From: Sulfurospirillum diekertiae
GTDB lineage: Bacteria > Campylobacterota > Campylobacteria > Campylobacterales > Sulfurospirillaceae
Length of the DNA stretch: 64,000 bases
Direction: 5' to 3'
Assembly (NCBI RefSeq): GCF_011769985.2
Contig: NZ_CP039734.2
Coordinates: forward strand, 2,666,001-2,730,000
Shown: piece by piece, positions 13,261 to 61,329 of the stretch
Numbering within the stretch: the first letter of the stretch is position 1
Layout: each line of letters begins with the position of its first letter
Program-made: the position numbers and the translations under genes
The notes under the pieces: model-generated
What the model was told of the DNA's origin: nothing
What the model saw: the letters and a program-made list of their open reading frames with translations, nothing else
Databases searched by the model: none

Positions 13261-13290
13261 TACCTCTCTTTGATTCTATTTTTACACGCT

Positions 13291-13592
13291 TTTGGGGCAA
13301 AGCCCGAAAAGCTACGCTGCACTGGGCACTAAAGCTTGCCTCGTACGAGGCAGAACTTATCTCTTATCCTCTTTACATGTAAAATATTTCACTCACATTT
13401 TAACATCTCTACGTTTGGGGCAAAGCCCGAAAAGCTACGCTGCACTGGGCACTAAAGCTTGCCTCGTACGAGGCAGAACTTATCTCTTATCCTCTTTACA
13501 TGTAAAAAGTCATTCACACTCATTTGTAACATCTCTATTTTTTGGGGAAAAGTCCGAGCAGAACGTATCTTCCAACCCTTTTACATGTAAAC
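13291..13592 (+). repeat. Structured intergenic repeat, island A (two full copies and one short copy)
   Basis: Two copies (13291-13384 and 13414-13507, period 123) share about 94 identical bases. Each begins with a GGGC-AAA-GCCC hairpin, has AAAGCT...AGCTT in the middle, a TGCCTC-GTAC-GAGGCA hairpin, and ends at TTTACATGTAAA. A third copy (13541-13592) lacks the middle but keeps GGGGAAAAGTCCGAG, CAGAACGTATCT and a terminal TTTACATGTAAA. The island fills the gap between dxr (stop at 13593) and uraA (start at 13260), antisense to both genes. A reading frame across it only translates the repeat. Confidence 0.85.
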
Positions 13593-14663
13593 CTAAAGGG
13601 CTAAGCAGTAACGCCTCACTTCGCGGTCGATCTCAAAGACCTCATCTAAACTTTTAGGAATTGCATCTTCAAAGTGTCGATAGGCTTTAATCGTTCGTTC
13701 GGCTAGTTCTAAAATATTAATCTCTTGATTAAAAAACTTCGCAATACCCACTTCATTGGCAGCATTGATGACAACACCACGTGTTGGGTTGGCAAGAACA
13801 TCGTCTTTAATCTCCCAAATAGGATAACGTACCGCCTCAATAGGGCGGAAAGAGAGAGAACCAATAGATGCTAAATCAAGGGAAGGTAAAATAGGCTCTT
13901 CCACTTCACCTACCAAAGCAAAGGCAATGGGAAGTTTCATATCCGCAACCGCTAAATGAGCTGTGGTGCTACCATCTTTAAAATTTACAAAGGCATGTAT
14001 TAGGGATTTTGGTTCGATGATGGCATCGAGTCTATCAACACCAAAAAGCCATTTAGCTTCTAAAAGCTCAAAAAGCTTGTTGGTCATCGTCGCACTATCA
14101 ATGGTTATCTTTGCGCCCATACTCCAATTGGGATGTTTAAGGGCGTCTTGAAAGGACATCGTTGAGAGTTTTTCAAGGGGAGTATCTCGAAAAGCACCCC
14201 CACTTGCCGTAATGGTCATACCACTTACGGGGCGTTTTCCTAAAAGATACCACAAACCAAAATGTTCACTGTCAATGGGGGTAATATGAGAGGTATCCAA
14301 CAGATGCCCAGCAACCACGAGGGATTCTTTATTGGCAAGTGCCAAACGTTTTCCAAGTCGCAATGCTTCGATGCTAGGAGCCAACCCCACAAATCCAACC
14401 AAAGCATTGACAACCAAATAACTCTGTGTTTTTTGTAAAAGCTCTAAAATACCCTCTTTACCAACAAATACATTGGTGTGATTGACTAAAGTACGATCTT
14501 TCGCGTCACTAATGGCGACATATTTTGGGTGGTGCTCTTTAATTTGTTCATTGAGAAGTCCAATATTTTTACCCGCAACAAGGGCTTCCACCGTAATACC
14601 AAAACGTTTGGCAATGATCAGCGCATTGACGCCAATGGAGCCTGTTGATCCTAGGAGTACCAC
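13593..14663 (-). CDS. dxr: 1-deoxy-D-xylulose 5-phosphate reductoisomerase
   Basis: Dxr converts DXP to 2-C-methylerythritol 4-phosphate in the MEP isoprenoid pathway, using NADPH and a divalent metal. The 356-residue protein shows LLGSTGSIGVNALI at the cofactor-binding N-terminus, LANKESLVV, PIDSEHFGLW, ASGGAFRDTP and TNKLFELLEAKWLF. The start is GTG at 14661-14663, immediately following the cdsA stop codon, so translation is coupled. The cdsA-dxr pairing is common in bacteria. The downstream gap is repeat island A. Confidence 0.95.
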   Translation of the reverse strand: MVLLGSTGSIGVNALIIAKRFGITVEALVAGKNIGLLNEQIKEHHPKYVAISDAKDRTLVNHTNVFVGKEGILELLQKTQSYLVVNALVGFVGLAPSIEALRLGKRLALANKESLVVAGHLLDTSHITPIDSEHFGLWYLLGKRPVSGMTITASGGAFRDTPLEKLSTMSFQDALKHPNWSMGAKITIDSATMTNKLFELLEAKWLFGVDRLDAIIEPKSLIHAFVNFKDGSTTAHLAVADMKLPIAFALVGEVEEPILPSLDLASIGSLSFRPIEAVRYPIWEIKDDVLANPTRGVVINAANEVGIAKFFNQEINILELAERTIKAYRHFEDAIPKSLDEVFEIDREVRRYCLAL

Positions 14664-15428
14664 TTACGCGAGCCCTCGAAGCAGGATGACCATGACCACG
14701 CCACCAAAAAGGTAACCATCAAGTCTGTCTAACATGCCACCATGTCCTGGAAAGAGCGTGCCACTATCTTTTAGCCCCGCCTCTCGTTTGAGATAACTCT
14801 CAAAAAGATCGCCAAATACAGATGCCACAGAGGTCACAAATGCAATGAAAGCTGAAAGCCACAATGGAATCAAAAACGTTCCATACAACGCACCCGCCAC
14901 TGTTGCGATCACCACGCCGCCGATGACACCTTCGAGTGTTTTATTGGGTGAAGTTGGAGAAAAAGGTGTTTTACCAATGCTTTTACCCACGCAATACGCC
15001 CCCGTATCGGTAAGAGCTACAACGATCACGAGCCATACCAAAACGGACATACCGAAATCGTGGTAAAGAGCGTAGAGAAACAGCATCGAAACCGAAGGGT
15101 ATAAAAAAGGTGCAAGAAGTTTATAATTCACATTTTTAGTGTAAGCCATAACAGCTAAAAATCCAATCAGTGCTAAATAGATCAAATCATCAGGATTGGG
15201 ATAGACAAATGCCGCTAACCATAAAAGAACCGCATACACATACAGTTTATTGTCTTTGACATCAAAAAGGTTCATTGCCTCATAAAAAGCGAGTAAATAC
15301 ATAGCACCAAGAATGAGCCATGTGAGGAGTGCGTTGTTTAAAAATGCGACCACTATAGCAAATGCGAGCATCACGAAGCCCGTGAAAACGCGCTGCTTAT
15401 TTGATTCGTAGAGTGCTTTAAAGTTCAT
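14664..15428 (-). CDS. cdsA: Phosphatidate cytidylyltransferase CdsA
   Basis: CdsA makes CDP-diacylglycerol from phosphatidate and CTP at the inner membrane. The protein has about seven hydrophobic segments and the signature in GDLFESYLKREAGLKDSG followed by FPGHGGMLDRLDGYL. I chose the ATG at 15428 (254 residues) because AAAAGAG lies just upstream; an ATG at 15467 adds 13 residues but has no ribosome binding site. It is upstream of and coupled to dxr. Confidence 0.92.
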   Translation of the reverse strand: MNFKALYESNKQRVFTGFVMLAFAIVVAFLNNALLTWLILGAMYLLAFYEAMNLFDVKDNKLYVYAVLLWLAAFVYPNPDDLIYLALIGFLAVMAYTKNVNYKLLAPFLYPSVSMLFLYALYHDFGMSVLVWLVIVVALTDTGAYCVGKSIGKTPFSPTSPNKTLEGVIGGVVIATVAGALYGTFLIPLWLSAFIAFVTSVASVFGDLFESYLKREAGLKDSGTLFPGHGGMLDRLDGYLFGGVVMVILLRGLA

Positions 15429-15485
15429 AGGGACTCTTTTAAGGATGTTGTCTAAAGAGGCAATCATAGCAAAGTCAAGGTGAGG

Positions 15486-15824
15486 CTAAGCTTTAACGTC
15501 TAAATGGCCATCGTGTACTGCAGGAACTTCCTCTTCTTCGGCTTTAGAATGCTCTTTCATCTCCTCTTGTTGCTTCATTTGCTCTTCTGTAGCGCCATTT
15601 TCTTCTTCATTTTTTTGGCGCTCATGCTCATTTTCAGGATCAATTTTATAGGTCTCTTCGGCAGGCCTAACATCTTCCACTATCTCTTCTTTTTCATTTT
15701 GCATTGCTTCAGCAATCATGCTTTGCATTTGAACACTGTTTTGGTAGTCCATCTGTTTTGCTGCTTGTACCGTTACCATTTGGTTTGCATAAATGACATT
15801 TCCAATAGCACCAACACTTGCCAT
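15486..15824 (-). CDS. Small acidic protein of unknown function
   Basis: The 112-residue protein begins with a hydrophobic-to-polar MASVGAIGNVIYANQ helix, followed by a highly acidic and glutamine-rich region (EEIVEDV, EEENGATEEQMKQQEEMKE, EEEEV) and a short tail HDGHLDVKA. It has no membrane segment after residue 20 and is probably disordered or coiled. The ATG has a GAGG-type ribosome binding site. It lies between cdsA and repeat island B. I do not recognise a named family. Confidence 0.65.
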   Translation of the reverse strand: MASVGAIGNVIYANQMVTVQAAKQMDYQNSVQMQSMIAEAMQNEKEEIVEDVRPAEETYKIDPENEHERQKNEEENGATEEQMKQQEEMKEHSKAEEEEVPAVHDGHLDVKA

Positions 15825-15840
15825 AAAAGCCTCCTTATTT

Positions 15841-16058
15841 TTACACGCTTCTTAGGCAAAGCCTCAAAAGCTACGTTGCACTAGGCACTAAAGCTTGGCT
15901 CTACGAGCCAGAATACTCCACTACTCTTTGTAAATTTTTAAGGTTTGATACTCTTCATAAGCAACGTTACTATTTTAACACGTTTCTTAGGCAAAGCCTC
16001 AAAAGCTACGTTGCACTATGCACTAAAGCTTGGCTCTATGAGCCAGAATACTCCGCTA
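15841..16058 (+). repeat. Structured intergenic repeat, island B (two copies, period 135)
   Basis: Two copies of the same element, starting near 15846 and 15981, keep the core AGGC-AAA-GCCT, AAAAGCTACGTTGCACTA and CACTAAAGCTT. The second hairpin is TGGCTC-TAC-GAGCCA in the first and TGGCTC-TAT-GAGCCA in the second. Compared with island A the stem pairs have changed on both sides. The 135-bp unit also contains a second copy of the last 45 or so bases of the NFACT gene (15926-15970 against 16056-16100). No palindrome copy is present here. Confidence 0.85.
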
Positions 16059-17390
16059 CTCTTTGTAAATTTTTAAGGTTTGATACTCTTCATAAGCAAC
16101 ATTCGCTCCATCAAAGGGTTTGACGTTTTTACGTTTCGTATAATCGACCAAATAGCCACCTTTTTGAGCCATGCTAAACTCCACGCACAGTTTTGCGGCA
16201 AATATGAGAACAGATTCAGGAACGTTCTGTTTTTCGGTACAAATAATCACATGAGAGGAAGGCAAATCTTTTACATGTAACCATATATCGCTCTTTTTCG
16301 CTTCTTGTAAAAGTGCGATGTTTCCTTTTTCATTTTTACCAAGCAGTATGCGATAACCCTCTAACAAAAAAGTCTCATAAAGATTGCTCTCATCGCCTTT
16401 TTGCTTTGATTTGCGCTGTTTGGGCACTAAAATTTGTATCTCTTCAGGGTCATGCGCCGCATTAATCACACCTACCATTCGCTCCAAGAAGAGTCGTTTC
16501 TCGTCTAAGTTCTCTTTTTGGCGATGCACCGAGAGCGCTTTTTGGCGCAGTTTTTTTGACTTTTTAAAGAGCATATTCGCCGCCATTTGCGGTGTTTGTG
16601 CTTGAGGAAGGTTGATCGTCACTTCATTGCCTTCAAAATCCACCAGTGTCACCGCTTCTTGATACCCTTTGATCGTGTTGGTATGCAAATGCGCTAAAAC
16701 CAAGGTTGCCTCTTTTTGCGCCTCGTCACTTTTCACCATCAACTCTTCTTCATTCTCCAGGGCATCAATCGCCTGAACAAGCTTCGTGATCTTTTTTTCC
16801 ACCTGAGCAATTTTCTGTTTTTTGATCTCTTCAAGCTTTACATGTAAACGTTTTTCATACGAGGCTTTCAGATACTCTTCAATACTTCCACCCAGCTCAA
16901 ATGGCTTCTCTTTAAGCTCTTTAGGCGGTAATTTTTCCAGTATTTCACCCACCTTAACACTGCGAAAAGAGACACTGGCATCAATATGACGCATTGCCTC
17001 TAAAACCACCTCGTTTTCATCTAAGATAATCGCGTTGGTATTGCGCCCCGTGAACTCTAACTGTAACGTTGTACGCATCGCTTTATAACTCGAACTCGCC
17101 ATCACCCCAATGCGCCAAATACGATTCCCCTCTTCCACTTCCATGCACTCAATCTTCGCATTTGAAAATCGCTTGGCAATCAGAACATCAAAGGGTGCGG
17201 TGTAACGCTTGGCTTGTTTGAAATCCTCTTTAAAAAACATATACGAATCCCCACGCCCAAGGTCGACAAACAGCGGCTCTCCCACTTCAAAAATAATGCG
17301 TAAGACAGAGTCATCCACACGGTAAATCGAAGAAATTTTATGGTACTGCTTTAAATAGTCATTGATACAAACAAGTTCACTGTGTTTCAT
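16056..17390 (-). CDS. NFACT-domain RNA-binding protein (RqcH/FbpA-like)
   Basis: The 444-residue protein has an N-terminal NFACT-N-like region (MRTTLQLEFTGRNTNAIILDE), a charged coiled-coil around residues 180-300 and a C-terminal NFACT-R domain (DIWLHVKDLPSSHVII). Family members include RqcH, which tags stalled nascent chains on the 50S subunit; the length is shorter than the usual 550 or more residues, so it may be a reduced form. Two palindrome copies (16271-16280 and 16838-16847) read as LHVK, the first inside the conserved NFACT-R motif. The gene ends within repeat island B. Confidence 0.85.
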   Translation of the reverse strand: MKHSELVCINDYLKQYHKISSIYRVDDSVLRIIFEVGEPLFVDLGRGDSYMFFKEDFKQAKRYTAPFDVLIAKRFSNAKIECMEVEEGNRIWRIGVMASSSYKAMRTTLQLEFTGRNTNAIILDENEVVLEAMRHIDASVSFRSVKVGEILEKLPPKELKEKPFELGGSIEEYLKASYEKRLHVKLEEIKKQKIAQVEKKITKLVQAIDALENEEELMVKSDEAQKEATLVLAHLHTNTIKGYQEAVTLVDFEGNEVTINLPQAQTPQMAANMLFKKSKKLRQKALSVHRQKENLDEKRLFLERMVGVINAAHDPEEIQILVPKQRKSKQKGDESNLYETFLLEGYRILLGKNEKGNIALLQEAKKSDIWLHVKDLPSSHVIICTEKQNVPESVLIFAAKLCVEFSMAQKGGYLVDYTKRKNVKPFDGANVAYEEYQTLKIYKE

Positions 17391-17406
17391 ACATCTCTTT
17401 TTTCAT

Positions 17407-17655
17407 TTTGATACGCTTTATAGGCAAAGCCTAAAAAGCTACATTAGCCACTAAGGCACTAAAGCTTGCCTCTGCAAGGCAGAATGATGGTGTTCGTTTT
17501 CAAATGGTCATACGATTCTATAAGTAAAGCTCTAAAAACTACGTTAACACTGAGTTTCCTTCGGCAAGATGCCCGCACACCTTTGGTGCTTTTGCCTCTG
17601 TGATTGTATTGATTTTGCCAATGGTACTGAATCTTGCTTCTTATAAGGCAGAATT
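17407..17655 (+). repeat. Structured intergenic repeat, island C (one full, one diverged copy)
   Basis: The first copy (about 17407-17484) reads TAGGC-AAA-GCCTA, AAAAGCTACATTAGCC, GCACTAAAGCTT and TGCCT-CTGCA-AGGCA. The second (about 17509-17655) has TAAGTAAAGCTCTAAAAACTACG, is split by about 90 unrelated bases, and ends in TTGCTTCTTATAAGGCAGAA. It overlaps the last codons of the glycerate kinase gene. It is in the same orientation as islands A and B, and fills the gap between glycerate kinase and the NFACT gene. Confidence 0.7.
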
Positions 17656-61252: not shown

Positions 61253-61329
61253 AGTAACCTCCTCAATTATTATCACACAATAGGATTTTGCCATCATATG
61301 GGTGGCAAAATCTTTACATGTAAAACTTC

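Follow-up and report, generated by a model that had tools for sequence, protein, structure and literature searches.

Three intergenic gaps between positions 13,291 and 17,655 of a 64,000-nucleotide (nt) stretch of Sulfurospirillum diekertiae DNA (contig NZ_CP039734.2, positions 2,666,001 to 2,730,000; hereafter the window) hold copies of one structured repeat, here called islands A, B and C. All genes flanking the three gaps lie on the minus strand. An initial annotation of the window had described copies in the same orientation in each gap, and covariance-model searches (cmsearch) bore this out: the islands contain five good copies of an element of about 80 nt, with E values of 3e-17 to 1.6e-24, together with remnants, all on the minus strand (Table 1). 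The annotation was correct but understated what is there.

Read on the minus strand, the form found in the window, subfamily F1, comprises three hairpins: P1 (TTCTGCC-TCGnnnGAGGCA), a short P2 (AAGCTTTAGYGCCnnAGYGGCTA) and the 11-bp stem P3 (ACGTAG-[GCTTTTNGGC TTT GCCNAAAAGC]), followed by an A-rich tail (GTnTAAAAATA). Both hairpins named in the initial annotation exist, but the first is only the tip of P3, and P2 had been overlooked. A covariance model, R1, was built from 19 dispersed copies. In this set 94% of pair cells were paired and both arms had changed in 13 of the 19 pairs, while all 500 shuffles fell short of it on each of five measures, and pairing in slid structures was only 30–53%.

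Copies from related genomes gave the same result. Among 91 such copies, none of which had been used in R1, 97.3% of cells were paired, a figure that leans toward the structure because the alignment was fitted to R1, although the controls fell far below it: 188 double-changed cells were counted, while shuffles gave 40 and slid structures no more than 42. Changes on both arms with pairing kept, as first annotated, are therefore beyond chance in the 19-copy set and in the relatives' copies alike. RNAalifold recovered P1 and P3 from the 91-copy alignment, and some stems have been wholly rewritten and still pair, for example GCAACAAGAG/CTTTTGTTGC at 743217. Several pair types in P2 were seen by regular expression, in a count that is too low since the pattern ended early. 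Folding of single sequences gave little information, P1 and P2 being in competition in some of them. The pairing is also strand-asymmetric: G-U pairs outnumbered A-C pairs, which would be the wobble on the other strand, by 124 to 15 on the strand described here, and by 46 to 15 when two G-U-rich columns were left out. Searches of Rfam returned no family match at the gathering cut-off or at E values up to 5. Counts of intrinsic terminators and sigma-70 promoters in the islands were at or below shuffle level, with no U-run after P3.

For a comparison of copies at the same locus, elements were joined by matching left and right flanks into 40 orthologous groups, a few of which hold the tandem copies of one genome. 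In the 46 nearest comparisons of equal length, 30 pairs had changed on both arms, against 8.8 (standard deviation 2.4) expected when 3'-arm changes are placed at random among pairs, and a standard pair was kept in 26 of these 30. Loci L077 and L294, for example, differ at four positions, including a compensated change from CG to UA. Together, covariation, strand asymmetry and same-locus changes support an RNA or single-stranded DNA structure rather than a protein site, as had been proposed. At C1:279218 and C1:2412242, compared with L238 and L236 of S. diekertiae JPD-1, P3 differs as a block on both arms and P1 is conserved, which suggests conversion or arm replacement.

Tandem duplication has shaped two of the islands, and the repeated units include flanking DNA. 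The two good copies of island A, where JPD-1 has three, form a tandem unit of 123 bp; they share a 94-nt repeat that is 100% identical and covers most of the copy, and the start codon of a permease gene lies 17 nt beyond copy 1. The 135-bp unit of island B includes a duplicate of the 3' end of the NFACT-like gene. The degenerate F2-type copy of island C, which belongs to the sister subfamily described below, gave a weak model match at 17512–17546. The ~50 bp at the end of the NFACT-like gene are duplicated past the element in several species, here at 15914–15970 and also at L096, L098 and L100 upstream of dxr; this duplication is longer than a normal target duplication, and in L096 the distal copy abuts the original downstream flank.

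Table 1. Copies and remnants of the element in the window, with the candidate partner insertion sequence (IS); positions are those of the window unless given on contig C1.
Feature	Position	Strand	Evidence or remark
F1 copy 1, island A (P1-P2-P3 and A-rich tail)	13277..13355	-	cmsearch 91.1 bits, E 1.6e-24
F1 copy 2, island A	13402..13478	-	66.4 bits, E 3e-17
Third F1 copy, island A, degenerate, internal deletion	about 13540..13563	-	by eye from sequence
F1 copy 1, island B, 12 nt ahead of the start of a 112-aa gene	15836..15913	-	84.2 bits, E 1.7e-22
Duplicate of last ~50 bp of NFACT-like gene, between the two island B F1 copies	15914..15970	-	55-nt near-identical duplication
F1 copy 2, island B, 7 nt past NFACT-like stop codon	15971..16048	-	76.2 bits, E 3.8e-20
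F1 copy, island C, 14 nt ahead of NFACT-like start codon	17404..17484	-	89.0 bits, E 6.5e-24
F2-type copy, island C, degenerate (GCACC-AAA-GGTGT hairpin ... GTGTTAACGTAG-P3)	about 17511..17600	-	by eye against F2 copies
F1 head remnant, island C (P1 and start of P2)	17611..17653	-	22.7 bits, E 2e-4
916-bp IS copies L339-L346	C1:251176, 711402, 839959, 1010716, 1084423, 1234921, 1296674, 2312491		2312491 most diverged

The covariance-model search proposed in the initial annotation showed that the window copies belong to a large family. The 2.78 Mb genome holds 64 copies at E<0.01, the weaker ones largely of subfamily F2, and all 22 other Sulfurospirillum genomes searched contain the element (8–89 copies each); outside the genus, only five genomes gave matches, two to four each. 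The annotation would have fallen had there been no other copies and no covariation; copies are abundant and covariation is strong. As judged with a simple gene caller made for this analysis, 61 of the 64 copies lie outside predicted genes. Sorted by their neighbours, copies in relatives lie between co-directional genes in the sense (50) or antisense (10) orientation, between converging genes (18) or between diverging ones (7). Between co-directional genes the excess of sense over antisense has a binomial P of 1.6e-7, in a count that includes orthologous copies. From these neighbour counts, the preferred place of the element is after the stop codon of a gene on the same strand. Most F1 copies have neighbours that are co-directional or converge, and their G-U-tolerant strand runs the same way as the upstream gene; in all three islands, as for most copies elsewhere, it has the same direction as the genes. 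The earlier description of the element as antisense to its two neighbours is true only of the strand that had been chosen to describe it. The same placement and the presence of G-T pairs in repetitive extragenic palindromic (REP) sequences were taken by Di Nocera et al. as signs of transcription (PMC3733652).

Occupancy varies between strains and species. Which islands of the dxr region are filled differs among relatives; the dxr protein shares 99% identity with its JPD-1 counterpart. JPD-1 lacks, or largely lacks, the F1 copies found here at 1620450, 2188855/2188941, 549251, 2301607 and 2191135, as well as three of the F2 copies. Divergence of the flanks obscures most of these boundaries. Some of the F1 sites are occupied in another species (2301607, for example, in L068), and these absences may thus reflect loss from JPD-1 rather than gain in the present genome.

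F2, the sister subfamily, is a 136-bp miniature inverted-repeat transposable element (MITE) that shares its GTTAACGTAG-P3 end with F1 and has terminal repeats AGASTTCTTGCAA and 3-bp duplications. In relatives, its 13-base ends, AGA(C/G)TTCTTGCAA, occur as facing pairs about 120–140 bp apart, mostly as the 136-bp unit. A clean insertion was recovered by comparing L096 with L113, whose flanks are 98% identical and where F2 has ATT on both sides; across 11 copies, exact 3-bp duplications were present in six and had decayed in the others. The 3 bp in L096/L113 rule out a TA duplication of the IS630/mariner type for the F2 ends. Mobility of F2 is thus well supported.

A candidate source of the transposase is resident in the genome. 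Ends of sequence AGACATCTTGCAA occur eight times as facing pairs about 916 bp apart, delimiting an IS (Table 1), and some F2 copies in genome G016 end in exactly AGACATCTTGCAA. All eight IS copies in this genome are flanked by 3-bp ANT duplications, so F2 and the autonomous IS agree in their terminal inverted repeats and in the length of the target duplication. Two overlapping frames of the IS match HTH_Tnp_4 and DDE_Tnp_4, and because the protein is split, NCBIfam IS5-family matches stay below the curated cut-offs. We presume from its size and 3-bp ANT duplication that it fits the ISL2 group of IS5. A more distant IS in genome G019 terminates in AGACTTCTTTCATAACCC, a sequence similar to the left end of F2 copy 371558 of the S. 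diekertiae genome. From these sequence matches, the IS transposase probably moves F2 in trans.

F1 is best read as derived from such a MITE, most copies now being cores without ends. At L282 an F1 copy lies between the same ends as F2 (AGACTTCTTGCAAAACTGCAAGAACTC ... AGAGTTCTGTAAGAACTCT). Among 44 F1 copies in this genome, two carry the left-end signal and four the right-end signal, and none carries both. Cores are nevertheless found at the same sites across species and, because their hairpins still covary when the ends are gone, we infer that F1 has a function at the RNA level, in mRNA protection or processing. We accordingly consider it likely that F1 in the window represents MITE-derived hairpin cassettes, probably co-transcribed, placed between genes and at gene ends. 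Full-length members consist of terminal inverted repeats around a hairpin core ending in the common P3, with F2 as the mobile form and F1 as the form seen in the window. F1 cores would be transcribed as part of mRNAs and function in them as RNA hairpins. Their most likely effect would be to protect the message upstream at its 3' end, or to provide a site of processing or attenuation between cistrons; gain or loss of tandem units would alter the number of hairpins. A further step, which we regard as possible but hold only tentatively, is that F1 is an exapted RNA, with some 40 end-less copies per genome under genus-wide selection as a common recognition structure (P1, the AAGCUUUAG segment, P2, ACGUAG and P3) for an RNA-binding protein or nuclease. 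If so, unrelated messages would be under common post-transcriptional control.

Several observations weigh against the reading of F1 as MITE-derived, co-transcribed hairpins. The 916-bp IS was found in only 5 of the 23 genus genomes, whereas the element is in all 23. Most F1 copies show no terminal repeats, and the case for their descent from a MITE is built on a few end-bearing copies and the common P3. The case for transcription of F1 comes from its position. The same-locus null ignores the unequal variability of pairs, so that the excess of 30 over 8.8 is somewhat overstated, and the G-U excess may partly stem from strand-biased mutation or from the model-fitted alignment. Gene conversion between copies also occurs, as the P3 swaps at 279218 and 2412242 indicate.

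Such conversion is central to an alternative in which the copies are neutral MITE relics whose covariation arises only from copying and gene conversion among dispersed palindromic copies, with no function as RNA. The wholesale P3 swaps at two orthologous sites would be expected from such a process, as would tandem arrays and gain and loss between strains. It does not readily account for orthologous copies that are a few changes apart and show single compensated pairs (L077/L294), for cores that persist at the same sites across species after the mobility ends have gone, or for the strong orientation bias (orthologous copies being included in that count), and we judge it unlikely. Function as a conserved regulator in the 5' untranslated region, a riboswitch-like leader of the downstream gene, is suggested by the position of the tail, which ends a median of 18 nt ahead of the start codon of a co-directional downstream gene, and by the fact that all window copies are so placed. 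The genes that follow, on the other hand, are not related to one another (among them are permease, hisG-like, murC-like and rnc-like genes), and in relatives 28 of 85 copies lack a co-directional downstream gene. Presence varies between strains, and Rfam gave no match; this reading is already largely refuted, and we give it hardly any weight.

The initial annotation had also suggested looking for a transposase of the REP-associated type (TnpA-REP). A Y1 transposase of the RAYT (REP-associated tyrosine transposase) type, about 258 aa long, is indeed encoded. It is a single, conserved gene: 22 of the 23 genus genomes have it, and the one without it is an assembly that is 86% complete. The element could then be of the REP or bacterial interspersed mosaic element (BIME) type, moved by the resident RAYT through recognition in single-stranded DNA of the GTAG just 5' of P3. 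Nearly all rows of the alignment have GTAG ahead of P3, strand-specific pairing fits single-stranded DNA too, and REPs typically lie downstream of genes and contain G-T pairs (PMC3733652). The proposed link to the transposase nevertheless found no support: a scan of 21 Y1 transposase loci found no copy of the element within about 1.5 kb (a REPtron would have REPs beside the gene), and the resident RAYT has inverted flanks of its own. At 80–136 nt, with three or more hairpins, the element is also not a 20–40 bp palindrome, and the last G of GTAG is paired with C instead of lying in an unpaired GTAG ahead of a short palindrome. The ends and size of F2 and its 3-bp duplications are those expected of a DDE element, not of Y1 chemistry. 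We therefore consider movement by the RAYT improbable and retain descent from an IS-mobilized MITE. An attC-like site was considered by eye and dropped.

Two further features touch on these subjects. The RAYT-type gene lies at C1:315364-315690 (L036), beside a gyrA-like gene, between the arms of the inverted repeat AGGGGTCAGGGCTAAA...TTTAGCCCTGACCCCT; in this it is like the RAYTs with terminal repeats on either side described in PMC3733652. The other is the palindrome TTTACATGTAAA, with which each island A copy had been said to end. It stands some 20 nt away from the element, in flank that has been duplicated in tandem with it, and its own spread over the genome rules it out as part of the element. 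The window contains 20 sites against 0.02 expected (for example 1958–1969, 16837–16848 and 61313–61324), and the genome 791 against one for the reversed control. Every genome of the genus has 14–792 sites, two genomes of the same family have 27 and 58, and other members of the order have 0–1. The sites fall in genes and gaps alike, an iteration that resembles HIP1 or uptake sequences, and a literature search found no report of TTTACATGTAAA in bacteria. It is an independent, genus-wide feature.

The element, then, is a genus-wide structured repeat, absent from Rfam, with a plausible transposase partner; among papers on Sulfurospirillum repeats or MITEs we found none on it. About 20 species allow a locus-by-locus comparison of a MITE family, its IS and end-less, structurally constrained descendants, which lets one ask directly at what point a hairpin of transposon origin turns into a conserved element of mRNA. 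Among the closest parallels are Correia/NEMIS and ERIC, MITEs that fold in mRNA (reviewed in PMC10969869, PMC2229807), likewise short, non-coding, mobile and intergenic, with terminal repeats, IS-derived ends and hairpins when transcribed. The element described here is unrelated to them in sequence and has an IS5-type 3-bp duplication; its three internal hairpins covary independently of the ends, and most F1 copies keep the core without them. The pneumococcal BOX, RUP and SPRITE repeats (PMC3049150) are also multi-hairpin intergenic repeats of variable number, placed for co-transcription at the 5' and 3' ends of operons, but they belong to another genus and differ in sequence, whereas in Sulfurospirillum an IS with matching ends was identified and compensation was seen at orthologous loci. 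GTAG-tagged REPs and their RAYTs (PMC3733652, PMC6006769) share the GTAG 5' of a hairpin, an intergenic and mainly gene-downstream location, G-T pairs and a RAYT in the genome; the present element is larger and composite, does not flank the RAYT, and has a sister subfamily with DDE-type ends and duplications. With ISL2-like members of the IS5 family the likeness is in the ends, those of F2 matching the 13–19 terminal bases of the resident 916-bp IS, and in the 3-bp duplications of both; the element itself is a non-autonomous form of 136 bp or about 80 nt, with an interior not seen in the IS.

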